DNA of 30,999 nucleotides from a virus: positions 1-30,999 of the IMG/VR virus record IMGVR_UViG_3300046532_003398, one strand, 5' to 3'. Below, in pieces: positions 1 through 14,496 of the stretch. Both the position numbers and the translations under genes were made by a program. The first letter of the stretch is position 1, and every line of letters begins with the position of its first letter. A model generated the notes under the pieces. The model was not told the DNA's origin and did not search any database. It saw only the letters and a program-made list of their open reading frames with translations.

Positions 1-39
1 GCCACATTGGAGTATTTTTTAAGCCGTGACATTTCGTGA
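1..39 (+). CDS. 3' end of an upstream gene (partial)
   Basis: The first reading frame is open from the window edge and stops at TGA 37-39. It encodes a tail ending in S-R-D-I-S. The last codons lie inside the GTGAC repeat of the next promoter. Three complete genes in the window end the same way (D-I-S at 3795, 8506 and 14176), which supports a real gene end here. The hydrophobic L-E-Y-F-L before the tail resembles the last strand of the GDLV-type small proteins, but only 12 residues are visible, so the assignment is tentative. Confidence 0.4.
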   Translation, partial: ATLEYFLSRDIS

Positions 40-69
40 CTTGTGTGTATCTGGTCTCCGTGCTATACT
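26..69 (+). promoter_or_regulatory. GTGAC-repeat promoter, class A (P1)
   Basis: GTGAC at 26-30 and 36-40 (10-bp period, ATTTC between) directly abuts a -35 box TTGTGT (41-46). After a 17-bp spacer comes the -10 TATACT (64-69). The leader AGGGTAACAAGGAG leads into the gene at 93. Confidence 0.8.
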
Positions 70-92
70 TATAGGGTAACAAGGAGAACAAA

Positions 93-461
93 ATGTCAGT
101 TAAGGTTGGTGATCTGGTCGGTTTATACCGTCGTAAGACCCCAGGAATGGGGATCATCTTAGAGAAGATGGAAGATGTTTTGAATGGCTCCGGCATCGAT
201 CGTGCGGTAGCTTTTGACGTTGCACAGAACGCTGAGGGCCGAACAAGCTGGGAAAAACACAATCTGGTTAAGCAGCTATGCGGCTCTGCTATAGGTAATA
301 CTGAGTTCCTGGGGTTATTTTTTCGATACAACGAGTCGTGGTGCAAGAAGCCTAAAACTAGTTTTGTGAAGATTAAGTGGTTTAGACAACCGGGATCATA
401 CGCGAGTAGAATAATAGATAGTGAGGGATGGTACCCTGCCGATTGGGTAAAGAACAAGTAG
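93..461 (+). CDS. GDLV-type small protein, long version
   Basis: This is a member of the small family repeated through the window. The shared pattern is an N-terminal (M)-K-V-G-D-L-V, a G-x-G-I-I-x strand, a V-x-V-x-W strand, and a final W/L-E-hydrophobic strand. Here K-V-G-D-L-V is at residues 4-9, G-M-G-I-I-L-E at 18-24 and F-V-K-I-K-W-F at 91-97, so about 65 residues are inserted between the second and third strands. At 122 residues it is twice the usual length. The ATG is preceded by AAGGAG. A small SH3/KOW-like beta barrel is inferred from the pattern; molecular function is unknown. It is the first gene of the operon from P1. Confidence 0.85.
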   Translation: MSVKVGDLVGLYRRKTPGMGIILEKMEDVLNGSGIDRAVAFDVAQNAEGRTSWEKHNLVKQLCGSAIGNTEFLGLFFRYNESWCKKPKTSFVKIKWFRQPGSYASRIIDSEGWYPADWVKNK

Positions 462-468
462 TTATTAT

Positions 469-714
469 GTGGTGGAATCTAAGTTTAAAAAGGGTGATTT
501 GGTTAAAGCGTGTTATGCGTTCTACGACTATTTTTATCCTCTGGATGACGTCGACGATTTGTTCTATCCATGGCGTGGAATCGTGATCAATCTTTATTTT
601 GATGAAGATTACTTCGGTGATGAAGCGGTCTATGATGTGTTATGCACTGATGGAATACAGCGACTATTTGCCGAGTGGGAACTAATACTGCTTCAGTCTG
701 CCAGTAAGTCATAG
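469..714 (+). CDS. GDLV-type small protein
   Basis: An 81-residue protein with F-K-K-G-D-L-V-K at residues 6-13, a W-R-G-I-V-I strand in the middle and a closing W-E-L-I-L-L strand, the family layout. It is rich in Asp, Tyr and Phe between strands. The start is GTG at 469 (GTG at 472 is an alternative). An ATG at 467 is in the wrong frame. It lies 7 nt after the preceding gene and presumably shares its transcript. Function unknown. Confidence 0.75.
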   Translation: MVESKFKKGDLVKACYAFYDYFYPLDDVDDLFYPWRGIVINLYFDEDYFGDEAVYDVLCTDGIQRLFAEWELILLQSASKS

Positions 715-735
715 CAATCTTTTTTCAGAAAGTGC

Positions 736-764
736 TTGACTTCTTTAATCAGATTTGGTATAAT
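736..764 (+). promoter_or_regulatory. Sigma70-type promoter of the tRNA cluster
   Basis: TTGACT (736-741), 17-bp spacer, TATAAT (759-764), ending 16 bp before tRNA-Leu. Unlike the operon promoters in this region it has no GTGAC repeat, so the tRNAs are probably expressed under different control. Confidence 0.75.
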
Positions 765-780
765 AATAGAGTAAGTAAGA

Positions 781-867
781 GGGACAGTGGTGGAATCGGT
801 AGACACAAGAGACTTAAAATCTCTCGCTCGATTGAGCATGCGGGTTCGAGTCCCGCCTGTCCTACCA
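781..867 (+). tRNA. tRNA-Leu (anticodon UAA)
   Basis: An 87-nt class II tRNA with a long variable arm. Acceptor GGGACAG pairs with CTGTCCT (one G-U). The anticodon stem AGAGA/TCTCT encloses loop CTTAAAA, giving UAA. The T arm is GCGGG-TTCGAGT-CCCGC and CCA is encoded. It reads UUA/UUG codons. It is the first tRNA after the promoter at 736. Confidence 0.95.
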
Positions 868-996
868 TCTAGAGGGCACGAAGAGTATTATGAAAATACA
901 TTAAGAACAGGGGAGATCGCTAAGCTGAATGATTTGGAAGTATTCGTTTATACTTATAAGGGAGAGCTTGTGAATATCAAGTCCCGATGGAGATAA
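868..996 (+). pseudogene. ORF fragment downstream of tRNA-Leu, no clear start
   Basis: The frame after the tRNA stays open to TAA at 996 and encodes a plausible protein end (G-E-I-A-K-L-N-D-L-E-V-F-V-Y-T-Y-K-G-E-L-V). There is no ATG or GTG with a ribosome site; a CTG at 925 or TTG at 934 is possible. It may be the 3' end of a gene whose front was replaced by the tRNA, or a very small gene with an unusual start. The alternating hydrophobic pattern suggests beta strands, but no family is recognised. Confidence 0.3.
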
Positions 997-1000
997 TACG

Positions 1001-1207
1001 ATGAGTTTTAATCAGAGAGATATGTGGGAGGCTCAGGTAGAGCGGTTGACGAAACACTGTCAGAGCTTGACACGAAAAGTTGAAGAGTTAGAGGCGAGAT
1101 TAGAATATTTTGAAGGAGTTGTCGCGACCTTATTGGTTGCGCTTAAAGAGGGAGGTGTATTGGTCGATAGCAGTGAAGAATCTGAATCGACTGAATATGA
1201 GTTTTAA
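1001..1207 (+). CDS. Small coiled-coil protein
   Basis: 68 residues. The first about 40 form a heptad-like amphipathic helix (V-E-R-L-T-K-H, S-L-T-R-K-V-E-E-L-E-A-R-L), followed by a hydrophobic stretch G-V-V-A-T-L-L-V-A-L and an acidic Ser/Glu tail. GGAGATAATACG precedes the ATG. Its stop overlaps the start of the next gene (TAATG). Oligomerisation through the coiled coil is likely; function unknown. Confidence 0.7.
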   Translation: MSFNQRDMWEAQVERLTKHCQSLTRKVEELEARLEYFEGVVATLLVALKEGGVLVDSSEESESTEYEF

Positions 1208-1410
1208 TGCAGGTACAGGCTTGGAAGGATTACTATATAGGCCAAATGGTCAAAGCGATAGGGATCCCCAACGCGGTCGGTATTGTGATAGATATTTATG
1301 TGGCAGACATAGACCTATGCTGGCTAAAAGTATTATGGTCGGATCTTGGCCCCCCCGCCAACTGGGAAAGGGCAGCATGGATCAAGCCATTTGATGAGAG
1401 AAAGATTTAG
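1207..1410 (+). CDS. GDLV-type small protein, divergent N-terminus
   Basis: 67 residues. The signature reads I-G-Q-M-V-K at about residues 11-16, then V-G-I-V-I-D-I, a W-L-K-V-L-W strand and W-I-K-P-F. The strand order matches the family although G-D-L-V has become G-Q-M-V. It starts within the stop of the coiled-coil gene, so the two are translationally coupled, and it ends 4 nt before tRNA-Lys. Confidence 0.7.
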   Translation: MQVQAWKDYYIGQMVKAIGIPNAVGIVIDIYVADIDLCWLKVLWSDLGPPANWERAAWIKPFDERKI

Positions 1411-1414
1411 AAAT

Positions 1415-1490
1415 GGGTCAATAGCTCAGTTGGTAGAGCATCGGACTTTTAATCCGGCGGCCCTGGGTTCGAGCCCCAGTTGACCCACCA
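1415..1490 (+). tRNA. tRNA-Lys (anticodon UUU)
   Basis: 76 nt. Acceptor GGGTCAA pairs with TTGACCC. Anticodon stem TCGGA/TCCGG encloses CTTTTAA (anticodon UUU). T arm CTGGG-TTCGAGC-CCCAG; CCA encoded. It reads AAA/AAG. Confidence 0.95.
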
Positions 1491-1500
1491 TTTTACATAG

Positions 1501-1577
1501 GGGCTTTTAGCTCAGTTGGTCAGAGCACTCGGCTCATAACCGAATGGTCGTAGGTTCAAGTCCTACAAGGCCCACCA
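1501..1577 (+). tRNA. tRNA with CAU anticodon (Met elongator or Ile2)
   Basis: 77 nt. Acceptor GGGCTTT/AAGGCCC; anticodon loop CTCATAA (CAU); CCA encoded. The acceptor closes with G-C, so this is not an initiator-type tRNA. The 3' half (TTGGTCG-like variable region and TTCAAGTCC T loop) also resembles tRNA-Ile2, whose C34 becomes lysidine and reads AUA. Sequence alone does not settle which. Confidence 0.9.
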
Positions 1578-1595
1578 TTAACCAAGGAGAAAACA

Positions 1596-1835
1596 ATGCT
1601 GCCATATACAGCAATATATCAAAATAGCGCTGGAGAAATCACACACAATCTTGCGACTGCATCTAATGATCGCGCCCAAGCATGGGCGCAGTTGTGCGAA
1701 ATGAAAGAAAATGAAGATGAATGTTTGATTTTGCTTGTGCCAGGAGACCATCCTGTGATACAATATAAAGATATACAGAAGAACAGGTATGTAGATTTAT
1801 TTGATAATATAAGCCCTGATAGCTCAGTTGGATAG
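1596..1835 (+). CDS. Small protein whose 3' end runs into tRNA-Arg
   Basis: 79 residues, no recognised domain. The ATG is preceded by AAGGAGAAAACA, a good ribosome site. It has an Ala-rich helix in the middle and an acidic stretch E-N-E-D-E-C. Its last 23 nt lie inside tRNA-Arg (starts 1813), which encode the D-S-S-V-G tail and stop. Such an overlap means the mRNA is cut when the tRNA is processed, unless separate transcripts exist. Confidence 0.6.
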   Translation: MLPYTAIYQNSAGEITHNLATASNDRAQAWAQLCEMKENEDECLILLVPGDHPVIQYKDIQKNRYVDLFDNISPDSSVG

Positions 1836-1889
1836 AGCATCGGCCTTCTAAGCCGAGGGTCGTAGGTTCGAGCCCTACTCAGGGTACCA
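1813..1889 (+). tRNA. tRNA-Arg (anticodon UCU)
   Basis: 77 nt. Acceptor GCCCTGA pairs with TCAGGGT (first pair G-U). Anticodon stem TCGGC/GCCGA encloses CTTCTAA (UCU). CCA encoded. It reads AGA/AGG, often rare in the host and common in AT-richer phage genes. Confidence 0.95.
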
Positions 1890-1894
1890 TATCT

Positions 1895-1968
1895 TGCCCT
1901 TTAGCTCAGTTGGTTAGAGCATCTGACTGTTAATCAGAGGGTCCGCAGTTCGAGTCTGCGAAGGGCAG
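1895..1968 (+). tRNA. tRNA-Asn (anticodon GUU)
   Basis: Acceptor TGCCCTT pairs with AAGGGCA, discriminator G. Anticodon stem TCTGA/TCAGA encloses CTGTTAA (GUU). It is the only tRNA here without an encoded CCA (followed by CTATT), so it needs host CCA addition. Confidence 0.93.
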
Positions 1969-1976
1969 CTATTAGA

Positions 1977-2052
1977 GGGGGAGTAACTCAGCGGTAAGAG
2001 TGGTCGCCTTATATGCGATTGGTCGCAGGTTCAAATCCTGCCTTCCCTACCA
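1977..2052 (+). tRNA. tRNA-Ile (anticodon UAU)
   Basis: 76 nt. Acceptor GGGGGAG pairs with CTTCCCT (two G-U pairs). D stem ACTC/GAGT. Anticodon stem GTCGC/GCGAT encloses CTTATAT (UAU). CCA encoded. A UAU anticodon reads AUA directly and is uncommon in bacteria, which use lysidine-modified CAU. Eight T residues follow (2053-2060) and may help end transcription. Confidence 0.9.
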
Positions 2053-2072
2053 TTTTTTTTAAGGATATATAA

Positions 2073-2438
2073 ATGAACGACTTTTACTTTTCAAAGGCAG
2101 CAGTGCCGCGCCAAGCCCGTCAGGCACCTGATTTGCGCGAGGGCTTGCGTGCGTATGTGACTGAACGCTTGCTAAAGGTTGCTGATGTTTGCCTGATACA
2201 TAATGAAGAACCTTATAAGAAAGAGTTTGGTACGCTTCATCGTCGCTACGCAAATATGTTGTTAATGGTTACCGAGGCGATCCAAGATGTGGATTATTTA
2301 ACTAAGTCTGTGGCTGTATGGATTCAAGAAGATTTTGAATCAGCAGCTAACGGAGCACAAAGAGACGCCGCAGGATTATGCGGCGCCGAGCTAATAAAGA
2401 TTTTAGAGATTTATAAGGAGAATGAAGAAAATGTTTAA
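2073..2438 (+). CDS. Hypothetical helical protein
   Basis: 121 residues, not recognised. Predicted largely helical, with no signal peptide or membrane segment. AAGGA precedes the ATG in a TATATAA stretch. The stop overlaps the start of the next gene (8 nt). It is the first protein gene after the tRNA block. Confidence 0.7.
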   Translation: MNDFYFSKAAVPRQARQAPDLREGLRAYVTERLLKVADVCLIHNEEPYKKEFGTLHRRYANMLLMVTEAIQDVDYLTKSVAVWIQEDFESAANGAQRDAAGLCGAELIKILEIYKENEENV

Positions 2439-2730
2439 GATGAATAAGAAAGTAGTTTGTAAAGACGGGTTTACGATGTCAGTCCAGGCGGGAGAATCAC
2501 AATATTGTCATCCCCGCGAAACTGACGCAGAAAGATACACCGAGGTAGAGATCGGATATCCGAATAGATCGGAGGATTTGCTTCTGGAGTTTGCGGAAGA
2601 CTCTCAAGCACCCACCGAGACAGTTTATCCATATGTGCCTGCTCCGCTTGTCACACTCGTTATCGCAAAACACGGCGGGATGGTAGAGGGTGAGCTACCA
2701 GCAGGCATACCCTGTTTGAGGGCAGACTGA
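2431..2730 (+). CDS. Conserved phage protein of unknown function
   Basis: 99 residues. The N-terminal K-V-V-C-K-D-G-F-T-M-S-V-Q-A followed by E-V-E-I-G-Y-P matches, from memory, a family common in phages and without assigned function. An ATG at 2422 is only 1 nt from the GGAG box; ATG 2431 has normal spacing and is chosen. A C-terminal K-H-G-G-M-V-E-G motif is also typical of that family. Stop and next start overlap (TGATG). Confidence 0.75.
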   Translation: MFKMNKKVVCKDGFTMSVQAGESQYCHPRETDAERYTEVEIGYPNRSEDLLLEFAEDSQAPTETVYPYVPAPLVTLVIAKHGGMVEGELPAGIPCLRAD

Positions 2731-2975
2731 TGCCTGAATGGGGGGCGCTCCTGATAGTTCTCGCAGGGCTTTTTATCCTGGCGCATTTGTTTAACTATTT
2801 CACCCAATCGGCTTATTGGTGGTGGGCTGACTGGCGCGCCAGCAAAGAAGACGAGAAAATGTTGAAAGAACAAGAAGAAACAGCAGAAAAGATGTTAGAT
2901 AACATAGTTAAACTAGATGATAGGAGAAAAGTAACCTTCATCGTACCTAACTATGATGATGACACGATCCATTGA
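2730..2975 (+). CDS. Small membrane protein with charged helix
   Basis: 81 residues. Residues 4-24 form one hydrophobic segment, followed by an aromatic patch Y-W-W-W-A-D-W and a Lys/Glu-rich helix (about 38-65). A single-pass inner-membrane protein with a cytosolic tail is likely. It is coupled to the upstream gene by TGATG overlap and overlaps the next small gene. Function unknown. Confidence 0.65.
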   Translation: MPEWGALLIVLAGLFILAHLFNYFTQSAYWWWADWRASKEDEKMLKEQEETAEKMLDNIVKLDDRRKVTFIVPNYDDDTIH

Positions 2976-3096
2976 ACTCTTGGGGGAACCACTAACGATC
3001 CTAGTGATAGCGATTGTGACGTTCTATGGATTCAGTTGGATATTAGAAAAGTTTGCGTATTTGATCGGATTCAGAGATGACGATGAAACGTGGTGA
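2953..3096 (+). CDS. Very small membrane protein
   Basis: 47 residues from ATG 2953 (2956 and 2959 are in-frame alternatives). It has one long hydrophobic segment (L-T-I-L-V-I-A-I-V-T-F-Y-G-F) and an acidic end D-D-D-E-T-W. It overlaps the previous gene by 23 nt and the next start by 14-20 nt, fitting the packing of this region. No homologue recognised. Confidence 0.55.
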   Translation: MMMTRSIELLGEPLTILVIAIVTFYGFSWILEKFAYLIGFRDDDETW

Positions 3097-3289
3097 TTTG
3101 GTTACGGCAATCTATGACGAACAAAGAAATATTGTATGTATTGGTTTAGTTCTGGAAGTGAGAAAAGAAAAAACAAGAAAGTACAAAACCCACAATCTCA
3201 AACGCGACGAAGCAAAGATAATGTGGTCATCCGAGCACTCACCGACTGGATGGTGGTTCGTCGACCAGCTAAGGATAGTAAGCGAATGA
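3083..3289 (+). CDS. GDLV-type small protein
   Basis: Starts M-K-R-G-D-L-V-T; then I-G-L-V-L-E-V, A-K-I-M-W and W-F-V-D-Q-L-R-I-V, the full strand pattern, in 68 residues. ATG 3083 is chosen over 3077 because the family begins directly with M-K-x-G-D. The stop overlaps the next start (ATGA). Confidence 0.75.
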   Translation: MKRGDLVTAIYDEQRNIVCIGLVLEVRKEKTRKYKTHNLKRDEAKIMWSSEHSPTGWWFVDQLRIVSE

Positions 3290-3471
3290 AAGTCGGTGAC
3301 ATCGTGCGATGGACGCTGCCGGCAGCATTCACAACGAGAGAAGTATCACCTCAAATAGGCGTTATAGTTAAGATGCATATTGGCAATGGCGCCGATGTCG
3401 CGTGGTTCGGTGATAATATGCGTATCGTCTGGACTCCGATAGTCGAGCTAAAGGTCATTTCAGTCTCGTGA
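3286..3471 (+). CDS. GDLV-type small protein
   Basis: 61 residues: M-K-V-G-D-I-V-R-W at the start, I-G-V-I-V-K in the middle, A-D-V-A-W, and a final L-K-V-I-S-V-S. It is coupled by ATGA to the paralogue before it. Its stop TGA (3469-3471) is part of the first GTGAC of the next promoter. Confidence 0.8.
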   Translation: MKVGDIVRWTLPAAFTTREVSPQIGVIVKMHIGNGADVAWFGDNMRIVWTPIVELKVISVS

Positions 3472-3521
3472 CAAATCGTGACAAACTTTTCATTGACATT
3501 CTCTTTCATATGTGAGATAAT
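3468..3521 (+). promoter_or_regulatory. GTGAC-repeat promoter, class B (P2)
   Basis: GTGAC at 3468 and 3478 (AAATC between), 10-bp gap, -35 TTGACA (3493-3498), 17-bp spacer, -10 GATAAT (3516-3521), then the leader AGGGGTAATCAAG. It overlaps the stop of the upstream gene. Confidence 0.85.
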
Positions 3522-3549
3522 ATAGGGGTAATCAAGACAGGGAGTCACA

Positions 3550-3795
3550 TTGATTAAAACTTGTAAGCACTGTAACGTGGATTTTAACACGAACTCGACC
3601 GCCAAGCGGCAAGCTGGCGGCAGGATAAACGAATGCGCGTCATGCGTGGAGGAGTTAGGGACAGAAACCGCCGTCAAATATCTGGGATTCTCAGAGGATG
3701 AGGCATCCGACATCGCGATTGTTTCCTTTGAAAGTAACGAATCGCGCGCTAATGTATCGTCAGCGTGGAAGGAAGGCGGTTGTGACATTTCGTGA
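3550..3795 (+). CDS. Small zinc-ribbon-like protein
   Basis: 81 residues from TTG 3550, with GGGAG 6 nt upstream. C5-x2-C8 and C29-x2-C32 can bind one zinc. The rest is acidic and helical (L-G-F-S-E-D-E-A-S-D-I). It is the only gene between P2 and P3. The C-terminal C-D-I-S is encoded by the P3 repeat, with TGA 3793-3795 inside the second GTGAC. Role unknown; nucleic-acid or protein binding is possible. Confidence 0.7.
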   Translation: MIKTCKHCNVDFNTNSTAKRQAGGRINECASCVEELGTETAVKYLGFSEDEASDIAIVSFESNESRANVSSAWKEGGCDIS

Positions 3796-3825
3796 CTTGC
3801 GTTTCTCACGCGCCTGCTGTATAAT
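3782..3825 (+). promoter_or_regulatory. GTGAC-repeat promoter, class A (P3)
   Basis: GTGAC at 3782 and 3792 (ATTTC between), abutting -35 TTGCGT (3797-3802); 17-bp spacer; -10 TATAAT (3820-3825); leader AAGGGTAATCAAGGAG. Confidence 0.85.
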
Positions 3826-3849
3826 AGAAGGGTAATCAAGGAGAGCTTT

Positions 3850-4230
3850 ATGGGCTATCGTTCAGATGTTGTTTTAGTTGTTGGAAAAGAGGTTATGCCT
3901 CAGTTTATGGTCACGATGGCGAAGTGCCTTGAAGCGAGATCCTTGTGCTTTGGGGAGGCAGAGAAGACGAAGGATTATGACGGCGCCGGCAATATGCTCT
4001 TCGTGTGGGAAGAGATCAAGTGGTATGATTCAAATGAAGGCATCGCGGCTATCGTAGACTTTGTGGACTGGTGCCTAAATACGAAGGTACCGCACCCTGA
4101 CGAGAAGGGCCAGCAAATCGAGGCCGATGAGTGTTTCCGTTTCGTTCGTATGGGTGAGGAAACCGACGATATTGAAGAGGCGGGAAACGGATTTTGGGAT
4201 GTAGGCGTCCGCAGGTCTATCTCATATTGA
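3850..4230 (+). CDS. Conserved phage protein with M-G-Y-R-S-D-V start
   Basis: 126 residues. The opening M-G-Y-R-S-D-V-V-L-V-V is shared by many phage and bacterial proteins of unknown function. The body has alternating strands and helices and acidic loops, with no catalytic signature seen. It is the first gene from P3, with AAGGAG 6 nt before the ATG. Confidence 0.8.
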   Translation: MGYRSDVVLVVGKEVMPQFMVTMAKCLEARSLCFGEAEKTKDYDGAGNMLFVWEEIKWYDSNEGIAAIVDFVDWCLNTKVPHPDEKGQQIEADECFRFVRMGEETDDIEEAGNGFWDVGVRRSISY

Positions 4231-4279
4231 TGACAAAACTTCGCGCCAGATTTTTCCTTTCCCACCGCAGGAAAGCACA

Positions 4280-4555
4280 ATGAAGATGACATTAGTCGTA
4301 GATACAGAGGACATCAAGGGCATCGAAGCCGCCCATAAGATGATTAGCACGATGTGCCGTCAGTATGACGTTCGCGCAACAAACCTCTCTGTCGAAATGC
4401 GATTCAGTAAAATCACATTTATCAAAGCTCTGCGCGCATATATGAAGAAGCAGCAGGACGCTGTTGAAGCAGAAGAAGTTACATTTCAAGATATGCGTAG
4501 CCTGCGTGGAGCAAAACACTTTGCAGACGCAATCTATAACGGGTGGAACCCGTGA
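4280..4555 (+). CDS. Hypothetical protein, weak L7/L12 C-terminal-domain resemblance
   Basis: 91 residues: a beta strand (M-T-L-V-V-D-T), helices, and near the end S-L-R-G-A-K-H-F-A-D-A-I. The end recalls the K-E-A-K-x-x-V-D helix of ribosomal protein L7/L12, and F-S-K-I-T-F-I-K-A-L-R recalls its K-I-x-V-I-K strand. The resemblance is slight and unproven. An AGGAAAGCACA ribosome site precedes ATG. The stop lies in the first GTGAC of P4. Confidence 0.6.
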   Translation: MKMTLVVDTEDIKGIEAAHKMISTMCRQYDVRATNLSVEMRFSKITFIKALRAYMKKQQDAVEAEEVTFQDMRSLRGAKHFADAIYNGWNP

Positions 4556-4605
4556 CATCTTGTGACAAGAAAATCATTGACTCTTAAACCCATTTATAGT
4601 ATACT
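4552..4605 (+). promoter_or_regulatory. GTGAC-repeat promoter, class B (P4)
   Basis: GTGAC at 4552 and 4562 (ATCTT between), 10-bp gap, -35 TTGACT (4577-4582), 17-bp spacer, -10 TATACT (4600-4605). The first GTGAC contains the stop codon of the upstream gene. Confidence 0.85.
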
Positions 4606-4634
4606 TATTAATATGAACAACCAGGAGGTTTCAT

Positions 4635-4949
4635 ATGGCTCAATCAATCCCCATCGTAACTAACGATATGGTCATCACACTTTGGACAGAGGGCCGAGAG
4701 GCTCGCAACCATACGAACACTCTAAAAGCCATCGCAGGCGATCTGTATTCATATAACCTCATGATTGGTCGCAGGACCGAGGGGGGCCAGTGCATCGTAG
4801 TTGACAAGACCGCGAAAGGCGGCTGCTTCCACTCGCAAACCACATCCTGTCACATCGGGCAAGCAAAGCGCGCCGCCGATATGGTAATGCATCCTCTCGT
4901 GTGGGAAGCTTCCCCGCTATCAAATGATGGCGATAGGGCGCCATTTTGA
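4635..4949 (+). CDS. Conserved phage protein of unknown function
   Basis: 104 residues. The combination D-L-Y-S-Y-N-L-x-I-G near residue 40 and S-Q-T-T-S-C-H-I-G-Q-A-K near 67-78 is, from memory, widespread in phage genomes, always without function. It is predicted beta-rich and soluble. It is the first gene of the P4 operon, which continues through six coupled genes to 5812. Stop and next start share TGATG. Confidence 0.8.
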   Translation: MAQSIPIVTNDMVITLWTEGREARNHTNTLKAIAGDLYSYNLMIGRRTEGGQCIVVDKTAKGGCFHSQTTSCHIGQAKRAADMVMHPLVWEASPLSNDGDRAPF

Positions 4950-5236
4950 TGGGCGAGTTAGTTAATCTTAAAGAGTACCGAGCCTGGAAATCTAAACAGG
5001 ACGAAGAGAAAAAACAAACGGAAAAGGGTATTGTCATTAACGAGTTAGAAGCCCTCAAAAATGCGTTGGATGCGATTGTGAAAGACCTACCAGATCAAAC
5101 ACATTCGATGACCCACCCGTCGATCGAGTCAGACCTCGATGCGTTTATGAGCAAGGGCTCCGATCCTGGAGACTTGGATGGATATCTGCTGAACTTGGGA
5201 CTAACGATAGATTACGATGAAACAGACGAAACTTAA
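4949..5236 (+). CDS. Hypothetical phage helical protein
   Basis: 95 residues, starting M-G-E-L-V-N-L-K-E-Y-R with a Lys/Glu-rich helix after it, a start seen in several phage hypothetical proteins. The acidic C-terminal half (D-P-G-D-L-D-G-Y-L) may be disordered. ATG 4949 is chosen because it overlaps the previous stop. The last 20 nt overlap the next gene. Confidence 0.7.
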   Translation: MGELVNLKEYRAWKSKQDEEKKQTEKGIVINELEALKNALDAIVKDLPDQTHSMTHPSIESDLDAFMSKGSDPGDLDGYLLNLGLTIDYDETDET

Positions 5237-5649: not shown

Positions 5650-5812
5650 TCTCGTTAAACATTATAGAGCCGATTGGCTCGGTGTTATCACGAGGGTGCG
5701 GAAGCTACACCATAATCCGGCTGGGATCCAGTACGTTGAGCTTGTATGGCTCTTCACCGGTCAGCCCGATCGCTGTGCGCCAAGCCTTTTGCTGATGGTC
5801 AGTGAATCGTGA
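5636..5812 (+). CDS. GDLV-type small protein, last of the P4 operon
   Basis: 58 residues: M-K-A-G-D-L-V-K, L-G-V-I-T-R-V, Y-V-E-L-V-W and a final L-L-L-M-V-S-E-S. GGAGGTTATCA precedes the ATG within the previous gene. Its stop TGA (5810-5812) is part of the P5 repeat. Confidence 0.8.
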   Translation: MKAGDLVKHYRADWLGVITRVRKLHHNPAGIQYVELVWLFTGQPDRCAPSLLLMVSES

Positions 5813-5852
5813 CATTTCGTGACTTGACCTCGACCATCGATTGTTGTATAAT
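5809..5852 (+). promoter_or_regulatory. GTGAC-repeat promoter, class A (P5)
   Basis: GTGAC at 5809 and 5819 (ATTTC between), abutting -35 TTGACC (5824-5829); 17-bp spacer; -10 TATAAT (5847-5852); leader AAGGGTATCAAGGAGG. Confidence 0.87.
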
Positions 5853-5876
5853 AGAAGGGTATCAAGGAGGTACAAC

Positions 5877-6218: not shown

Positions 6219-6225
6219 GTTAAAT

Positions 6226-7069: not shown

Positions 7070-7072
7070 ACC

Positions 7073-7116
7073 GTGACATTTCGTGACTTGCGTTTTGCTC
7101 TCGCATGTGAGATAAT
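7073..7116 (+). promoter_or_regulatory. GTGAC-repeat promoter, class A (P6)
   Basis: GTGAC at 7073 and 7083 (ATTTC between), abutting -35 TTGCGT (7088-7093); 17-bp spacer; -10 GATAAT (7111-7116); leader AGGAGTAATCAAGGAG. Confidence 0.87.
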
Positions 7117-7139
7117 ACAGGAGTAATCAAGGAGACGAT

Positions 7140-8312: not shown

Positions 8313-8506
8313 AGAAAGGCGATCTTGTTAAAGTTAGGAAAATGAAGGGCGCCGGGATCATCCAGGCGGTTCAGACGAACCGCGAAATCTGCGGACCTAA
8401 CGGAGATTTTCACATGACGCGCCACTATAGAGTGCTTTTGAACGGCAAAATCTGGCGCATCCACGAAGCAAGTCTCATCCTTATCTCAAATCGTGACATT
8501 TCGTGA
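8309..8506 (+). CDS. GDLV-type small protein, last of the P6 operon
   Basis: 65 residues: M-K-K-G-D-L-V-K-V, G-A-G-I-I-Q-A-V, Y-R-V-L-L-N-G-K, A-S-L-I-L-I-S-N-R-D-I-S. The R-D-I-S tail is encoded by the P7 repeat; the stop lies in its second GTGAC. Confidence 0.83.
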   Translation: MKKGDLVKVRKMKGAGIIQAVQTNREICGPNGDFHMTRHYRVLLNGKIWRIHEASLILISNRDIS

Positions 8507-8536
8507 CTTGATCTTTGCTCTCGCATGTGAGATAAT
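8493..8536 (+). promoter_or_regulatory. GTGAC-repeat promoter, class A (P7)
   Basis: GTGAC at 8493 and 8503 (ATTTC between), abutting -35 TTGATC (8508-8513); 17-bp spacer; -10 GATAAT (8531-8536); leader AGGGGTAATCAAGGAG. Confidence 0.87.
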
Positions 8537-8560
8537 ACAGGGGTAATCAAGGAGAACCCC

Positions 8561-9397
8561 ATGCCATCATACACCGGAACCATTCGCTGCTCGCACTGCT
8601 ACGAGCCAGGACACAACAAGCGCAAGTGTCCACGCCTCACCAGCGAGATCAAGGAGCAATATGAACGTCAGGCGCGAGTCTCCGAGCGTTATCGGAGCGG
8701 GGAGTTTGATCACAAGCTCCGCACCGCTGGCGATGTTGAAACCAACGAGGCGCGAGAGTGGAACGTCAACTATCACGTGAACCGCGCCGAGGAGTCTCGC
8801 AAGTCATACCTCAAGCGCACGAAGATCGACCTCGCGACTGGTAAGAAGGTCACGAACAAGGCGGCGAAAGCCGAGCGCATGAAGAACGTGAAGTGTGGCT
8901 ACTGTAAGGATCGCGGGCACACCCGCCGCGTCTGCCCTGCTGTCAAGGAAGATTACCAAGTTTACAAGGCGCTTTCTGAGAAGTACAAGCAGGTAGCATA
9001 TGCGAGGCTCCAAGAGCTGAGCGTCAATATCGGCTCGATGGTCTTTACCCGTCGCTGGATATCGGGCGAGTACAAGAACACGATATATCTGGTGACCTCG
9101 TTTGAAATGCGTAACGTGGACTATCATAACCAGGGCGCGCCCTGCGTCAAGCTCACCAGCCCGCAGGGCCATGGCGACTACTGGCTAAGCGCCGAGCAGA
9201 TCGCGCACAATCTAGATGCGGGCAAGGGCTGTGCATCAGCAACACCGCTTGCGCTCAACGCGATCGCGCTGAATGGCGCTAAACTTATTAAGGAAGCGTT
9301 CCCGACCCATTCTGATCGTCCCCATCAATACGGTCGTTATGGTGAAGAAGAGGTGCGTGCGGCCCGTACAGCCCTCGGTATTCCCACCCCTCTCTGA
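8561..9397 (+). CDS. Two-zinc-knuckle protein with GDLV-like domain
   Basis: 278 residues. Two CCHC zinc knuckles are clear: C10-x2-C13-x4-H18-x4-C23 and C112-x2-C115-x4-H120-x4-C125. In other proteins this finger binds single-stranded RNA or DNA. Between them lies a Lys/Arg/Glu-rich helical region. Residues about 154-216 (V-N-I-G-S-M-V-F, T-I-Y-L-V-T-S, C-V-K-L-T, Y-W-L-S-A-E-Q-I) repeat the GDLV strand pattern, so this looks like an RNA-binding protein carrying the local module. It is the only gene between P7 and P8. A role in host or phage mRNA handling is inference. Confidence 0.85.
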   Translation: MPSYTGTIRCSHCYEPGHNKRKCPRLTSEIKEQYERQARVSERYRSGEFDHKLRTAGDVETNEAREWNVNYHVNRAEESRKSYLKRTKIDLATGKKVTNKAAKAERMKNVKCGYCKDRGHTRRVCPAVKEDYQVYKALSEKYKQVAYARLQELSVNIGSMVFTRRWISGEYKNTIYLVTSFEMRNVDYHNQGAPCVKLTSPQGHGDYWLSAEQIAHNLDAGKGCASATPLALNAIALNGAKLIKEAFPTHSDRPHQYGRYGEEEVRAARTALGIPTPL

Positions 9398-9400
9398 GCT

Positions 9401-9454
9401 GTGACATCTTGTGACATCATTTTCCTTGACCTGAAACCATTTTTCCTGTATACT
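9401..9454 (+). promoter_or_regulatory. GTGAC-repeat promoter, class B (P8)
   Basis: GTGAC at 9401 and 9411 (ATCTT between), 10-bp gap, -35 TTGACC (9426-9431), 17-bp spacer, -10 TATACT (9449-9454). It drives the AAA+ ATPase gene. Confidence 0.87.
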
Positions 9455-9467
9455 TACTGTAAGTGAT

Positions 9468-9482
9468 GGGGGATAAACCCCC
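9468..9482 (+). promoter_or_regulatory. GC hairpin in the 5' leader of the ATPase gene
   Basis: GGGGG-ATAAA-CCCCC, a perfect 5-bp G:C stem with a 5-nt loop, starting about 14 nt after the -10 box and ending 12 nt before the GGAG ribosome site. It could protect the mRNA 5' end or affect initiation. No U tract, so not a terminator. Confidence 0.5.
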
Positions 9483-9505
9483 GCCGATGCCTCTGGAGGC
9501 TCTCA

Positions 9506-10585
9506 ATGTCCGTCGATTTCGCAACCTTTACCTCTGTCGTTTCTCACATCCTCGACGCGCGCCTTCCGGTGCTGCTTCGTGGGCGTCATGGAGTCGGCAA
9601 GTCTCAAGTCGTTTACCAGATCGCAGACGCGCGAGAGCTGCCCGTAGTGGAGCGCCGCGCCTCTCAGATGACTGAAGGCGATCTTCTCGGTCTGCCCGAT
9701 ACCACCGATACCGCGAGTGGCCGCAAGGCTACCACCTGGAACGCGCCTGACTGGCTCGTCACTGCCTGTGAGCAGCCCGTAGTCCTCTTCCTCGATGAAG
9801 TGGACCGCGCGACCATGGAAGTGCGTCAGGGGCTCTTTGAGCTTACCGACTCCCGCAAGATCAACGGCTGGCACCTGCACCCTGAGACGCTGATCGTCGC
9901 TGCCGTCAATGGCGGCGAGCACGGCGCCCAGTATCAGGTGGGCGAAATGGACCCGGCAGAGCTTGACCGCTGGACCGTGTTCGACGTCGAGCCCTCCGTT
10001 GAAGATTGGCTCAAGTGGGCGAATGGCAAGGTTAACGGGATCCTGTGGGACTTCGTTAATATGAACCGCGCGCACCTGGAGCACATCGGTGACTTCGAGC
10101 CTAACAAGGTTTATCCTTCTCGTCGCTCGTGGGTTCGCTTCAACGATACCTCTACTCCTGCCGATGTGTTCGGTGAGGAAGGCGATCGCGATCTCCTCTT
10201 CAACCTCGCAACTGCATTCGTCGGTTTCGAGGCTGCGGTTTCCCTCCGTGACTTCGTTGAGAAGTACGAATGGCAGGTAACCATTGAGGATATCCTTGAT
10301 GCCGGCGATCTATCTAAGACTATCCAGTGGGGCATCAATGACCACTCCGCGATGATCGAGAAGTTCGAGGCCGCCGCAGTCTTCAAGGAGACCCTGACCT
10401 CCGAGCAGGTTGCTAACCTCGCTGCCTACTTCGTCAGCCTGCCCTCCGAGGTAGCGATGAAGCTCTGGACCGTCCTGGGCGACACCGATAACATTGATAA
10501 TGTTGTCGCGCTCCACAAGGCTGAGACCGCCGATGGTAAGCGAGTGAGCGATCACCTTGTTGAAATCCTGGGCGGTTCTCAGTAA
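9506..10585 (+). CDS. MoxR-type AAA+ ATPase
   Basis: 359 residues. Walker A G-R-H-G-V-G-K-S at 26-33, Walker B V-V-L-F-L-D-E at 92-98 followed by V-D-R-A, sensor-1 N135 in V-A-A-V-N, and a likely arginine finger near D-R-W (about 154-156). This is the AAA_5/MoxR group. These ATPases remodel protein complexes together with a VWA-domain partner, and a VWA protein is encoded two genes downstream. Length fits the family. Leader hairpin and GGAG box precede ATG 9506. It ends in a TAATG overlap with a GDLV-type gene. Confidence 0.92.
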   Translation: MSVDFATFTSVVSHILDARLPVLLRGRHGVGKSQVVYQIADARELPVVERRASQMTEGDLLGLPDTTDTASGRKATTWNAPDWLVTACEQPVVLFLDEVDRATMEVRQGLFELTDSRKINGWHLHPETLIVAAVNGGEHGAQYQVGEMDPAELDRWTVFDVEPSVEDWLKWANGKVNGILWDFVNMNRAHLEHIGDFEPNKVYPSRRSWVRFNDTSTPADVFGEEGDRDLLFNLATAFVGFEAAVSLRDFVEKYEWQVTIEDILDAGDLSKTIQWGINDHSAMIEKFEAAAVFKETLTSEQVANLAAYFVSLPSEVAMKLWTVLGDTDNIDNVVALHKAETADGKRVSDHLVEILGGSQ

Positions 10586-10794
10586 TGCGATCGCCGCAGG
10601 TGGGGGATCTCGTCTATCTGCGCGATAGGACCGGTGACGATCCCGTCGTTAAACATCACGGCGCAGGGATCGTCACTCACATTCAAGCATTTGATCAGAG
10701 TATGGATTATCCACACATCAGTGTTAAATGGCTCAGATCTGAAGAAACACACAAGTTCTTAGAAAAGGATCTGATGGTGCTCCATGAAGCGTGA
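10585..10794 (+). CDS. GDLV-type small protein in the MoxR operon
   Basis: 69 residues: P-Q-V-G-D-L-V-Y-L at 4-12, G-A-G-I-V-T-H-I, I-S-V-K-W, D-L-M-V-L-H. It starts inside the ATPase stop codon, so it is translated along with it, and overlaps the next gene by 11 nt. The position between the ATPase and its VWA partner hints at adaptor use, which is speculative. Confidence 0.8.
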   Translation: MRSPQVGDLVYLRDRTGDDPVVKHHGAGIVTHIQAFDQSMDYPHISVKWLRSEETHKFLEKDLMVLHEA

Positions 10795-10987
10795 GTTAAA
10801 TATAGGCGATCTCCTCATTTCTCGCGACACCGGCAAGCCTGGGTTGATCATGGGGATGCGCGAGGGCAGAAAGAACGAGTATGGGAGCGCCAGCCGAAAG
10901 CGCAAGGTCTATCGCATCTTTGACGATGGCCGACAATACTGGCTCCACGATATCGAGGTACGAGCCAAGTTCAAGATCAACCCGTGA
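10784..10987 (+). CDS. GDLV-type small protein
   Basis: 67 residues: L-N-I-G-D-L-L-I at 5-12, P-G-L-I-M-G-M, Y-R-I-F-D-D-G, W-L-H-D-I-E-V. Basic (net positive, with K-N-E-Y-G and R-K-R-K loops). The stop is part of the first GTGAC of P9. Confidence 0.78.
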   Translation: MKRELNIGDLLISRDTGKPGLIMGMREGRKNEYGSASRKRKVYRIFDDGRQYWLHDIEVRAKFKINP

Positions 10988-11037
10988 CATCTTGTGACAT
11001 CATTTCTGTTGACTTCCCCCTCCCTTTCCTGTATACT
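10984..11037 (+). promoter_or_regulatory. GTGAC-repeat promoter, class B (P9)
   Basis: GTGAC at 10984 and 10994 (ATCTT between), 10-bp gap, -35 TTGACT (11009-11014), 17-bp spacer, -10 TATACT (11032-11037), leader ending AATAAGGAG. Confidence 0.88.
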
Positions 11038-11062
11038 TGTGAAGTAATAAGGAGATCCCCTC

Positions 11063-12310
11063 ATGTCTGACCAGCCCTTTAATCTCAACCTGCACGCCGC
11101 GCGCCTCCTGATGCGCGAGCCCTTCTTTGCTGCTCTCTCGCGTCGGATTGATAAGACACCGACCACTGCGATCCCGACTGCCGGCGTCCGTGTCAATCCA
11201 CACCGCGCACAGTTCGAGCTGCTCTATAATCCTGAGTTTATGGGCGCCCTGAGCGATGAGCATAAGCTTGGCGTTCTGATGCATGAGTTCTATCACATTA
11301 TTTTCGAGCACGTGACCGGGCGCAAACCATCCGATGGTCTCAAGCGCATCGATAATATTGCCATGGATCTCGCGATCAACGGCTTGCCCGAAATGAAGGG
11401 CAAGCTTCCATGCGAGTCTGATCCTGGCCCGATAATGCCCTCTGGCGAGCCTATGAAGGGTGTTCTACCCGGCGAAGGTCCATTTGTTGACCTGCCCTCT
11501 GGCAAGTCTTACGAGTGGTATCTGGAGGCTCTCAAGGATATGCAGGAGGAGCAAGGCGAAGGCGGCGAAGGTCAAGAGGGCGAAGGCTCTGGCCAGCCTG
11601 GAGATGGCGATCCGTTCGATGGCGCCGATAGCTTCGATGATCACGATGGTTTCGGGGAGGGCGATAGCACCACCACCGAGATCGCAAAGGAGCGTCTCAA
11701 GGATACACTCAAGAAAGCCGCCGAGGAAGCCGAGAAATCCCGCAACTGGGGATCCGTCTCCTCTGGCATGCGTCAAGACATCCTCGATCGCATCCAGACT
11801 AAAATAGATTGGCGCAAGGTGCTACGCTACTTCGTCAAGACCAGCCAGCGCAGCGACAAGCGATCAACGCCTCGTCGCTTGAATAAGCGGTATCCCCGTG
11901 TCCATCCTGGCAAGCGGGTAACTCGTCACGCTAAGATCGCGGTCAGCATCGACCAGAGCGGATCGGTGGACGATCGGATGCTCGCCGCTTTCTTCTCAGA
12001 GCTTAACAAGCTAGCTGAAATCGCAGAGTTCACGGTGATCCCGTTCGATTCTGAGGTTGGAGAGGATAAGGTCTATGTATGGAAGAAAGGCCAGCACTGT
12101 AAGACCGAGCGCGTGATGTGCGGAGGCACTTGCTTCAACGCTCCCACTAAGTATGTCAACAAGCACGCTTTTGACGGGCATATCATCCTGACAGATCTGT
12201 GTGCTCCCAAGCCGATCGCTTCAAAGTGTCAGCGCATGTGGATGACTACAAGCGCATATGCCGCTCGCCCCTACTTTCAGACGAATGAGCGCGTTATCGC
12301 GATCGATTGA
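11063..12310 (+). CDS. VWA-like metallopeptidase (MoxR partner)
   Basis: 415 residues. The N-terminal domain has the zinc-peptidase motif H74-E-F-Y-H78 within L-M-H-E-F-Y-H-I-I-F. A Gly/Glu/Asp-rich linker spans about 165-205, then a helical part and a C-terminal VWA domain with a MIDAS D297-x-S299-x-S301 (I-A-V-S-I-D-Q-S-G-S). This is the DUF2201 architecture, known in bacteria beside MoxR ATPases, as here. The VWA domain would bind metal and a client; the ATPase would remodel it. The HExxH is intact, so proteolysis is possible but unproven. AAGGAG precedes ATG. Confidence 0.88.
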   Translation: MSDQPFNLNLHAARLLMREPFFAALSRRIDKTPTTAIPTAGVRVNPHRAQFELLYNPEFMGALSDEHKLGVLMHEFYHIIFEHVTGRKPSDGLKRIDNIAMDLAINGLPEMKGKLPCESDPGPIMPSGEPMKGVLPGEGPFVDLPSGKSYEWYLEALKDMQEEQGEGGEGQEGEGSGQPGDGDPFDGADSFDDHDGFGEGDSTTTEIAKERLKDTLKKAAEEAEKSRNWGSVSSGMRQDILDRIQTKIDWRKVLRYFVKTSQRSDKRSTPRRLNKRYPRVHPGKRVTRHAKIAVSIDQSGSVDDRMLAAFFSELNKLAEIAEFTVIPFDSEVGEDKVYVWKKGQHCKTERVMCGGTCFNAPTKYVNKHAFDGHIILTDLCAPKPIASKCQRMWMTTSAYAARPYFQTNERVIAID

Positions 12311-12367
12311 GTTAAACATAGCCCGCTGGGGCTCGTCTCAGCACCCACCTGATCCAGGAGATCATCA

Positions 12368-12457
12368 ATGTCCCTTCTCGCCCTTATCGCCGGTTCAACC
12401 CTCTGGTTCGTTGCCCTCGCGGGTATCACGATCATTCCCTTCTACGAGGGACGATAG
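12368..12457 (+). CDS. Tiny single-pass membrane protein
   Basis: 29 residues, hydrophobic from residue 3 to 24 (L-L-A-L-I-A-G-S-T-L-W-F-V-A-L-A-G), ending Y-E-G-R. CAGGAGATCATCA precedes the ATG, a strong ribosome site, which is the main support. It lies between the VWA gene and a small basic gene. Function unknown. Confidence 0.55.
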   Translation: MSLLALIAGSTLWFVALAGITIIPFYEGR

Positions 12458-12459
12458 CC

Positions 12460-12753
12460 TTGAAGTATTATATCAGTCGTACACATCTCGCCTTAGACGC
12501 CGATGGCCGCATTTCAGGCTATGAGACGGTGCTCACCCGTCCCGACACGATCAAAGCCACCCAGGAGGCCCTCAGACGCTATAGGGCTCTTGGAATCTCG
12601 TCTCTTCACGTATGCACGCACCCTAAGAATGGGCGAAGGTATGGTAAACTTGATCGAGGCGCTGGTAAGCGCAGAGGTAAGACTAGAAAGCTTACTCTCG
12701 CGGATGTGGCTCCGGCGTTGGCTGAGCTTGCAGCAGAGGGTGACAAATCGTGA
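12460..12753 (+). CDS. Hypothetical basic protein (TTG start)
   Basis: 97 residues from TTG 12460, 2 nt after the previous stop. Begins K-Y-Y-I-S-R-T-H-L with beta-like alternation, then helices and a very basic stretch R-G-A-G-K-R-R-G-K-T-R-K near residues 66-77. Not recognised; nucleic-acid contact is plausible. The stop lies in the second GTGAC of P10. Confidence 0.65.
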   Translation: MKYYISRTHLALDADGRISGYETVLTRPDTIKATQEALRRYRALGISSLHVCTHPKNGRRYGKLDRGAGKRRGKTRKLTLADVAPALAELAAEGDKS

Positions 12754-12793
12754 CATCATTTCTGTTGACTTCTCCTCTCGATTCCTGTATACT
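12740..12793 (+). promoter_or_regulatory. GTGAC-repeat promoter, class B (P10)
   Basis: GTGAC at 12740 and 12750 (AAATC between), 10-bp gap, -35 TTGACT (12765-12770), 17-bp spacer, -10 TATACT (12788-12793), leader ending CTCGGAGG. Confidence 0.88.
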
Positions 12794-12818
12794 TGTAAAG
12801 TAACTCGGAGGTTCATCT

Positions 12819-13673
12819 ATGGCTCGTTCTACCTATGGCACCCGCTTGGAGGCTCTTATCGCAAATCCCGCGATTTCCTCACGCGATAAATCCTTTGCGG
12901 AGTCTCTCCTTCGCTTCTACGCTTCCAATCGCCGGCTGAGCGCTGGCCGCGCGCGATGTGTTAAGCAGCTTGAAGAGCGCTATAGCCCTGAGAAGCTCGC
13001 CGCCGCCCTTACGAAGGGTGCTGGTATGCTGGAGCGCCTCAACGCCGTGTGCGAGCGTACAGAGGCATCCTCCTGGGCTCGCGGGTTCGTCAATAGCTTG
13101 CAAGGTCAGATCATGGCCGGACGCGAGTTGTCAGATAAGCAGATCCCAGTGCTGGAAAAGATCGAGAGGGATCATAACGACGAGGCTATGACTGCGCGCG
13201 AGACCTGGAAGCAGGATTATCTGCTCAAGGTGGATCCCGACTGGATAGAGACGTCCACTAACGCCCGATTTTATGAAGTTGCCACGATCGCCGCCAAGTA
13301 TTATAAGCAGGCCAACTATTTCGGAGCGTTGGCTGAGAAGATCCTCAACGATGACGGATTTGTGCCCTCGATCGATCAGTACAATAAGATCACTAAGAAT
13401 AAGTTCGTTGTCAAGGTGCTACAAGCCCACTATGCGCCTCAGAAGTTCGCGGCTGGCTCGCTTGTTCAATATTCGGCTACTGCTCCTGGGCGTATTCGGA
13501 CTGCTGGAGGCAACAAGATCCCGATGGTGGTGATCATGGCTAACGCCTCGCCCATCATCAGCGCAGCAAAGGGCGCCAAGATTTACAAGGTGCTCCCAAT
13601 CGGGAGCCCTACAACGCGACTCGTTGAAGAGCGCCACTTGAAGAAGGCCCGAAAGGCCGGAGGTAAGAAATAA
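12819..13673 (+). CDS. Helical protein with C-terminal GDLV-like module
   Basis: 284 residues. The first about 200 are mostly alpha-helical with many Ala, Arg, Glu and Lys and no catalytic motif seen. Residues about 209-276 follow the local module: A-A-G-S-L-V-Q-Y, M-V-V-I-M-A, K-I-Y-K-V-L-P-I, L-V-E-E-R-H-L. The tail is basic (K-K-A-R-K-A-G-G-K-K). Cyanophage and marine-phage proteins of similar style exist, but I recognise no function. GGAGG lies upstream of ATG 12819. Confidence 0.75.
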   Translation: MARSTYGTRLEALIANPAISSRDKSFAESLLRFYASNRRLSAGRARCVKQLEERYSPEKLAAALTKGAGMLERLNAVCERTEASSWARGFVNSLQGQIMAGRELSDKQIPVLEKIERDHNDEAMTARETWKQDYLLKVDPDWIETSTNARFYEVATIAAKYYKQANYFGALAEKILNDDGFVPSIDQYNKITKNKFVVKVLQAHYAPQKFAAGSLVQYSATAPGRIRTAGGNKIPMVVIMANASPIISAAKGAKIYKVLPIGSPTTRLVEERHLKKARKAGGKK

Positions 13674-13846
13674 TGAATACTCACAACCGCGAAGAAACTG
13701 CCCTGGAGGCAGCAGCAGCCAACTGCGAATCACTGATCGCCCAACTGGCGACCTGGGCGCAGATCAAAACTGGCAATACTGAGCCATCAACCGAGGATCT
13801 TTTACTCGTGACGCTCTCGGTTATGATCACCCCAGCGGAGGCATAA
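13673..13846 (+). CDS. Small Ala-rich helical protein
   Basis: 57 residues starting in the stop of the previous gene (TAATG). E-E-T-A-L-E-A-A-A-A-N-C-E-S-L-I-A-Q-L forms an amphipathic helix, followed by a second hydrophobic helix. No domain recognised; start overlap and codon pattern support it. Confidence 0.55.
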   Translation: MNTHNREETALEAAAANCESLIAQLATWAQIKTGNTEPSTEDLLLVTLSVMITPAEA

Positions 13847-13852
13847 GCATAG

Positions 13853-14176
13853 ATGCCCGTTAAAGTTGATCAACCTCCGTTGCTCTCAGATTTCCCCAGC
13901 GGTCGATTCGCGATTTCTGGGAACGTTTGGATTAAGGTGCCCGATGATACAAAGTTCGAGGACTTAGATCGATATATGATACACGAGACCGCAAAACGCC
14001 CTGAGAGCCCTTGTGGAGCGTCAGAGAGAGCTTGGGCTGTCGTAGGCAGCAAAGGCGCCCACTATACGGTGAGAGCCAGCTACGGGCGTTATACCTGCAC
14101 GTGCAAGGGTTTCGGCTGGCGACATACGTGCAAGCACATCGATCAGGTCAAGAAAGATAATCGTGACATTTCGTGA
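13853..14176 (+). CDS. SWIM zinc-finger protein
   Basis: 107 residues. C82-x-C84-x8-C93-x-H95 in Y-T-C-T-C-K-G-F-G-W-R-H-T-C-K-H-I matches the SWIM finger (CxCx(n)CxH), a DNA- or protein-binding motif. Preceding strands (W-A-V-V-G-S, Y-T-V-R-A-S) are usual in front of SWIM motifs. The tail N-R-D-I-S is encoded by the P11 repeat. Confidence 0.8.
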   Translation: MPVKVDQPPLLSDFPSGRFAISGNVWIKVPDDTKFEDLDRYMIHETAKRPESPCGASERAWAVVGSKGAHYTVRASYGRYTCTCKGFGWRHTCKHIDQVKKDNRDIS

Positions 14177-14216
14177 CAGAGATCCGCTTGTAATCCTGGG
14201 GCGCCTGTGGTATAAT
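14163..14216 (+). promoter_or_regulatory. GTGAC-repeat promoter, class B (P11)
   Basis: GTGAC at 14163 and 14173 (ATTTC between), 10-bp gap, weak -35 TTGTAA (14188-14193), 17-bp spacer, -10 TATAAT (14211-14216). It combines the class A inner spacer with class B placement. Confidence 0.8.
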
Positions 14217-14246
14217 GATAGCATATCAAGTAAGGAGATATAAATC

Positions 14247-14465: not shown

Positions 14466-14496
14466 TCCGAGATCACTTCTACAGGAGATATATATT

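Follow-up and report, generated by a model that had tools for sequence, protein, structure and literature searches.

Tandem TGAC repeats at two in-phase positions upstream of sigma70-type promoters in a family of uncultured marine T4-superfamily phages

Background

Boxes of the OmpR family of regulators, such as those of PhoB and CpxR, are tandem direct repeats of about 10 to 11 base pairs (bp), and the sites of lambda CII are direct repeats with a 10-bp period at sigma70 promoters. The PhoP box of Salmonella, a direct repeat with an 11-bp period (hexamer-N5-hexamer), acts at 12, 23 and 33 nucleotides (nt) from the -10 element: at 12 nt a contact with sigma is presumed, at 23 nt the C-terminal domain of the RNA polymerase alpha subunit (alpha-CTD) is needed, and at 33 nt the box works at about half strength (PMC3335776). 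Among phages, the early promoters of T4-like phages are of the host sigma70 type and carry an upstream element, with many of them preceding novel open reading frames (ORFs), and the middle promoters of T4 carry a MotA box at -30 in place of the -35 element (PMC1524935). Here, we describe a set of sigma70-type promoters preceded by the tandem repeat GTGAC-N5-GTGAC in a 30,999-bp virus record (IMG/VR IMGVR_UViG_3300046532_003398, positions 1 to 30,999; hereafter the window), and hundreds of related promoters in its relatives. The repeat stands at either of two positions one helical turn apart, a geometry that probably reflects an activator binding upstream of RNA polymerase.

Results

The exact pattern GTGAC-N5-GTGAC occurs 11 times on the plus strand of the window and not once on the minus strand, and a reversed control pattern has no match in the window. 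With up to two mismatches allowed, there are 45 copies compared with 14.6 +/- 4.2 in shuffled sequence, an excess of about three-fold. Beside each exact site, we searched for promoters without constraining the geometry (-35 start 0 to 40 bp downstream, spacer 15 to 19 bp) and took the best. For all 11 sites, this promoter had a 17-bp spacer and a -35 element either directly abutting the repeat (offset 0, class A, n = 5) or 10 bp beyond it (offset 10, class B, n = 6), an arrangement found at 1.8% of 3000 random window positions. The original prediction, made by reading the window, had proposed exactly this: eleven such promoters with 17-bp spacers, five with the second GTGAC touching the -35 box and six with it exactly 10 bp further upstream. 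Its coordinates and classes proved right. Every copy of the GTGAC pair in the window is tied to a promoter, unlike replication iterons, and at no fewer than 8 of the 11 sites the TGA within a GTGAC copy doubles as the stop codon of the upstream ORF. The promoters, numbered by position, and one repeat-free promoter for contrast are as follows.

26..69, + strand: P1, class A; repeat 26-40, -35 TTGTGT 41-46, -10 TATACT 64-69; before ORF 93-461
3468..3521, + strand: P2, class B; repeat 3468-3482 (first GTGAC contains the stop of ORF 3136-3471), -35 TTGACA 3493-3498, -10 GATAAT 3516-3521; before ORF 3550-3795
3782..3825, + strand: P3, class A; repeat 3782-3796, -35 TTGCGT 3797-3802, -10 TATAAT 3820-3825; before ORF 3850-4230
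4552..4605, + strand: P4, class B; repeat 4552-4566, -35 TTGACT 4577-4582, -10 TATACT 4600-4605; before ORF 4635-4949
5809..5852, + strand: P5, class A; repeat 5809-5823, -35 TTGACC 5824-5829, -10 TATAAT 5847-5852; before ORF 5877-6218 (TTG start)
7073..7116, + strand: P6, class A; repeat 7073-7087, -35 TTGCGT 7088-7093, -10 GATAAT 7111-7116; before a small ORF with its start near 7138
8493..8536, + strand: P7, class A; repeat 8493-8507, -35 TTGATC 8508-8513, -10 GATAAT 8531-8536; before zinc-knuckle-like ORF 8561-9397
9401..9454, + strand: P8, class B; repeat 9401-9415, -35 TTGACC 9426-9431, -10 TATACT 9449-9454; before MoxR-like AAA ATPase ORF 9506-10585
10984..11037, + strand: P9, class B; repeat 10984-10998, -35 TTGACT 11009-11014, -10 TATACT 11032-11037; before DUF2201/VWA-like ORF 11063-12310
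12740..12793, + strand: P10, class B; repeat 12740-12754, -35 TTGACT 12765-12770, -10 TATACT 12788-12793; before ORF 12819-13673
14163..14216, + strand: P11, class B; repeat 14163-14177, -35 TTGTAA 14188-14193, -10 TATAAT 14211-14216; before ORF 14247-14465
736..764, + strand: sigma70-type promoter without any repeat (contrast), upstream of the tRNA-Leu gene 781-867

The window represents part of the genome of an uncultured marine phage of the T4 superfamily, from a clade with genomes of about 200 kilobases (kb). Homologues of the MoxR-like ATPase encoded after P8 (62-91% identity) were found at 80 IMG/VR loci, on contigs of up to 205 kb. One of these relatives (G011, 195 kb) encodes T4-type terminase, portal, capsid and tail-sheath proteins, a DnaE-type polymerase and GroEL; the isolates with the closest terminases, at 44-48%, are Flavobacterium phage immuto and Microcystis phage Mel-JY01.

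Throughout this family, the repeat is held at fixed distances from the promoter. In 601 sigma70-like promoters with 17-bp spacers from the 80 loci, TGAC stands at -25 relative to the -35 element in 255 cases and at -14 in 244, where 2.8 are expected per position and where the control word CAGT gives a flat profile. These positions are unchanged with spacers of 16, 17 or 18 bp, a constancy that favors a protein touching RNA polymerase on its -35/upstream side. A scan anchored on repeat pairs yielded offsets of 10 (454 promoters), 9 (65) and 0 (7) for pairs with an 11-bp period, and of 0 (27) and 10 (15) for pairs with a 10-bp period; a wider scan of offsets added a few tens at 20-22 bp, where the array has a third copy, and virtually none at a half turn. 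Removal of duplicate sequences left 577 distinct promoters, with offsets of 0 (32), 9 (71) and 10 (474), and periods of 11 bp (537) and 10 bp (40). The original prediction had supposed that a protein sits on one face of the DNA at either of two positions separated by a helical turn, and these offsets, with essentially none at the half turn, bear that out: the geometry lends good support to a single bound protein that would act from two positions in phase.

Period and sequence change together. Where the period is 10 bp, the base before TGAC is G at the two half-sites in 36 and 38 of the 40 promoters, respectively; where it is 11 bp, that base is T or C in 527 and 531 of the 537. The motif exists in two linked forms: most promoters have YTGAC with an 11-bp period, and the window's relatives have a lineage variant in which GTGAC recurs every 10 bp. 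On a tree of the ATPase, the motif states are clustered, with the GTGAC/10-bp form in two places that a single origin could still explain. Consensus strings from across these diverged phages show that the half-sites and their spacing are kept, while variation falls in the promoter spacer and in the 9-10 bp that precede the -35 element.

The repeats are also confined to one part of the genome. Long genomes have 8-14 repeat promoters within one block of about 10-20 kb, nearly all on the same strand; G014 has a single outlier, G012 and the partial G001 carry sets of four each, and five long relatives have no repeat promoters. Elsewhere in these genomes, promoters are without the repeat, and the DNA preceding their -35 element is often A-rich. 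Relatives without the motif carry an A-rich stretch resembling an UP element at the repeat position upstream of the orthologous ATPase gene, and such a stretch is not seen before the -35 element where repeats stand. No repeat promoter was found in the isolates Mel-JY01, immuto (1-150 kb scanned) or Vibrio phage Va1 (1-50 kb scanned), and a literature search, with most subscription journals outside its reach, found no description of this promoter class.

GTGAC-N5-GTGAC arrays occur as well in Epsilon15/phiV10-like enterobacterial phages (G010, and similarly G007 and G008). We set these phages aside, as their repeats lie inside a replication gene; the arrays in G010 (L057:2331-3221) are within a replication-initiation gene, resemble origin iterons and are unrelated to the repeat promoters.

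The end of the repeat lies 23 nt from the -10 element in class A and 33 nt in class B, and the -35 hexamer is outside the repeat in all 11 window sites, so that neither class overlaps it. The original prediction had described class A boxes as mostly the poorer ones. Within the window this is the case, with a mean match to consensus, counted by hand, of 3.6 out of 6 versus 5.0 in class B. Across the GTGAC/10-bp promoters of the family, the difference vanishes (4.58 versus 4.80, Mann-Whitney P = 0.53), and with it the idea that class A compensates for a poor -35 element, which fits the window only. Comparison of orthologous promoters is more informative. P7 is class A in the window and its close relatives (4) and class B in 39 of 43 classifiable orthologues; P3 is class A in 3 and class B in 18, and P5 is class A in 2 and class B in 10. 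P1, class A in the window, has classifiable orthologues of class B, and P8 to P11 are class B wherever the repeat could be classified in relatives. On this comparison, class A is mostly a lineage trait of the GTGAC group, although the set of 577 also has eight class A promoters with the 11-bp period. Given that orthologous promoters switch class, class is not tied to gene function, and we rejected A and B as gene-specific regulatory modes; the two positions look interchangeable rather than like two modes of regulation. The original prediction had likened class A to class II activation, through sigma, and class B to class I activation, through alpha. This division is not supported, given the lack of -35 overlap, the class switching, the lack of a family-wide difference in -35 quality and the alpha-CTD requirement of the PhoP box at 23 nt. 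The other option offered, repression of one class, is possible but found no specific support.

We searched the phages for a regulator. The DNA-binding domain of OmpR/PhoB regulators (Trans_reg_C, PF00486) is absent from 14 phage records, in a search whose control gave a signal in 10 of the 14 genomes; a phage regulator of this type was thus rejected. Among 96 conserved G011 proteins scanned with Pfam, 40 of them also with PHROGs, one stood out as a DNA-binding candidate, a small cysteine-rich protein with a sigma-region-4-like helix-turn-helix; the matches listed, where weak ones may be hidden, included no other obvious DNA-binding regulator. A second protein family, of about 90 amino acids, emerged from phylogenetic profiling as the best follower of the motif. 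The two candidates are as follows.

G011 141596-141853 (L272:1596-1853), - strand: sigma-region-4-like helix-turn-helix protein, 86 amino acids; Pfam Sigma70_r4, E = 1.7e-8
4280..4555 of the window, + strand: member of the family of about 90 amino acids; weak candidate regulator with a low-confidence helical model

The sigma-region-4-like protein is present in 16 of 24 family records searched, including the motif-less genomes G017-G020, has no match in the phage collection, and carries the same recognition helix (SFARIKQIE) in the GTGAC and YTGAC lineages. The family of about 90 amino acids occurs in 9 of 9 repeat-bearing genomes and in 1 of 5 repeat-free ones, the count for the latter having been 0 of 5 until a profile search found a member in motif-less G018. 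AlphaFold models of this family are of low confidence (predicted local distance difference test scores of 72.6 and 75.5), and no fold match was found for the model. The protein at 4280-4555 is a weak candidate for the regulator.

Two hints as to the host are both weak. The window encodes an IscU-like iron-sulfur scaffold protein (23771-24151) that is 72-74% identical to IscU of Vibrio and Aeromonas, and one contig of the phage family is binned in a metagenome-assembled genome of Neomarinimicrobiota. Among the family genomes compared, the IscU-like protein was seen outside the window only in G019, which lacks the motif.

Discussion

Among described systems, the PhoP box is close in layout: both are tandem direct repeats with a period of 10-11 bp, and two of the active PhoP distances, 23 and 33 nt, are those of the phage promoters. 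PhoP boxes differ in that their number and orientation vary, they often replace a good -35 element at 12 nt, and no such regulator was found encoded in the 14 phage records; the phage repeats are TGAC-based, have one orientation and leave the -35 element in place. Considered against OmpR/PhoB-type boxes more generally, the repeats have the period (537 at 11 bp, 40 at 10 bp) and the whole-turn position upstream of a sigma70 -10 element, without a phage-encoded Trans_reg_C protein in those records and without class II overlap of the -35 element (0 of 11). They resemble such boxes in kind and may belong among them. Read on the opposite strand, the phage-family sequence TGACA-N6-TGACA becomes the Pho-box core TGTCA-N6-TGTCA, but the classical Pho box overlaps the -35 element and runs the other way; the CpxR sequence GTAAA-N5-GTAAA shares the 5+5 layout of the phage repeat, with a different core. 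CII repeats straddle the -35 element, whereas both phage half-sites are upstream of it. T4-like early promoters share the sigma70 type with an upstream element, which in their case is an A-rich UP-like stretch at -40 to -44 rather than a tandem TGAC repeat. As with MotA, the phage promoters possibly depend on an activator bound near the -35 element, but in all 11 window promoters the -35 element is intact and the site is upstream.

The explanation that we consider probable from these comparisons is that the repeats form the tandem site of an activator that touches RNA polymerase from upstream and is tolerated at two positions one turn apart. The activator would occupy the two half-sites on one DNA face, just upstream of an intact sigma70-type promoter, and would help to recruit RNA polymerase, most likely via the alpha-CTD and/or sigma region 4, with the repeat ending either 23 or 33 nt before the -10 element. 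Together the sites would define a regulon within a single block of genes for small proteins and ATPases, with about 4-14 promoters that point the same way. The regulator could come from the host, as would a response regulator of the OmpR/PhoB type, a group whose boxes show such geometry, or from the phage itself. Binding by a protein, activation, and the polymerase surface touched are what we infer here; we counted in favor of an activator that the repeats take the place of an UP element, where motif-less relatives have A-rich DNA, along with the fixed spacing to the -35 element, the strand bias and confinement to one block, the PhoP precedent, and the near absence of the pattern from bacterial and archaeal genomes.

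Four observations weigh against an activator of this kind. PF00486 is missing from the phage records. All -35 boxes match at least half of the consensus, so that the promoters may work without an activator. If the regulator belongs to the host, one might look for its consensus at host promoters too, and none surfaced in 84,980 bacterial and archaeal genomes, where the class B pattern had two matches only, in a contig of this phage family and at an isolated site in a Clostridia metagenome-assembled genome (host sites may be degenerate, or the host may be unsequenced). Finally, the ATPase tree has the GTGAC/10-bp form at two places, so that the regulator may not have changed its specificity just once.

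A more specific version, which we put forward tentatively, is that the phages encode an undescribed activator without a recognized DNA-binding fold that controls about ten promoters, and that half-site (YTGAC to GTGAC) and period (11 to 10 bp) changed together in its lineages. If so, these genomes would hold a natural record of an activator and its promoters changing geometry while staying in helical phase.

Of the rival explanations, the strongest is that the repeats are operators, at which a phage or host repressor shuts the promoters, for example at the end of early transcription. Strong promoters with shared operators are common in phages, and the sites abut the -35 element or lie near it, where a bound protein could block polymerase. 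We nevertheless regard repression as unlikely: operators usually vary in position and often overlap the core promoter, whereas the spacing to the -35 element is exact to one or two positions over hundreds of diverged promoters, class B sites stop 10 bp short of the -35 element, and relatives have an UP-like stretch in the same place.

Somewhat less plausible still is a model with no dedicated regulator, in which the repeats serve as a sequence-specific UP-element substitute for the host alpha-CTD, or as extra -35-like boxes that hold polymerase. The repeats do lie in the UP-element region, A-rich in relatives, and TTGAC, the unit in most of the family, is the core of the -35 element. The alpha-CTD, however, prefers the minor groove of A-tracts to TTGAC, and the half-sites have no -10 element at a usable distance. 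The host polymerase evidently reads ordinary A-rich stretches, since these serve the promoters that lie outside the block in the same genomes.

We give little credence to a third possibility, that the sigma-region-4-like phage protein recognizes the tandem TTGAC boxes as if they were -35 elements. In its favor are the Sigma70_r4 match, its presence in two-thirds of the records searched and the reading of TTGACA by sigma70 region 4, but the protein occurs in genomes without the motif and its recognition helix is unchanged between the motif lineages. Moreover, R584 and E585, which we take to be two residues of sigma70 that contact -35 bases, are replaced by F and A. The protein is possibly a late-transcription factor, an equally likely role. 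Finally, duplication of a promoter cassette by recombination, with a functionless repeat, could produce many promoters in one block and the spacer sequence shared by P6 and P7, but appears already disfavored, and most improbable, given that half-sites and spacing are kept while the intervening sequence varies, and that orthologues change class in whole turns.

Next to nothing is known of how genes are regulated in uncultured marine T4-superfamily phages, and comparing sequences was enough here to yield a regulon, the geometry of its sites and natural variants by the hundred. These promoters lend themselves directly to testing the rules of helical phasing for activators (0 and 10 bp are seen, 5 bp is not), the evolutionary interchangeability of two positions, and joint change in half-site and period. 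The protein, once found, would prove to be either an activator new among phages or a host regulator to which a block of phage genes responds.

Other features

On the minus strand of G011, at 9060-10202, a protein conserved in several large relatives has a tubulin/FtsZ-like glycine-rich motif, recognized by eye. In the window, positions ~1-18100 encode many small paralogous proteins that start with KVGDLV or similar, arranged in runs with overlapping start/stop junctions, and the region ~15010-15860, between the repeat-promoter block and the next genes, contains hardly any ORF of at least 50 amino acids.

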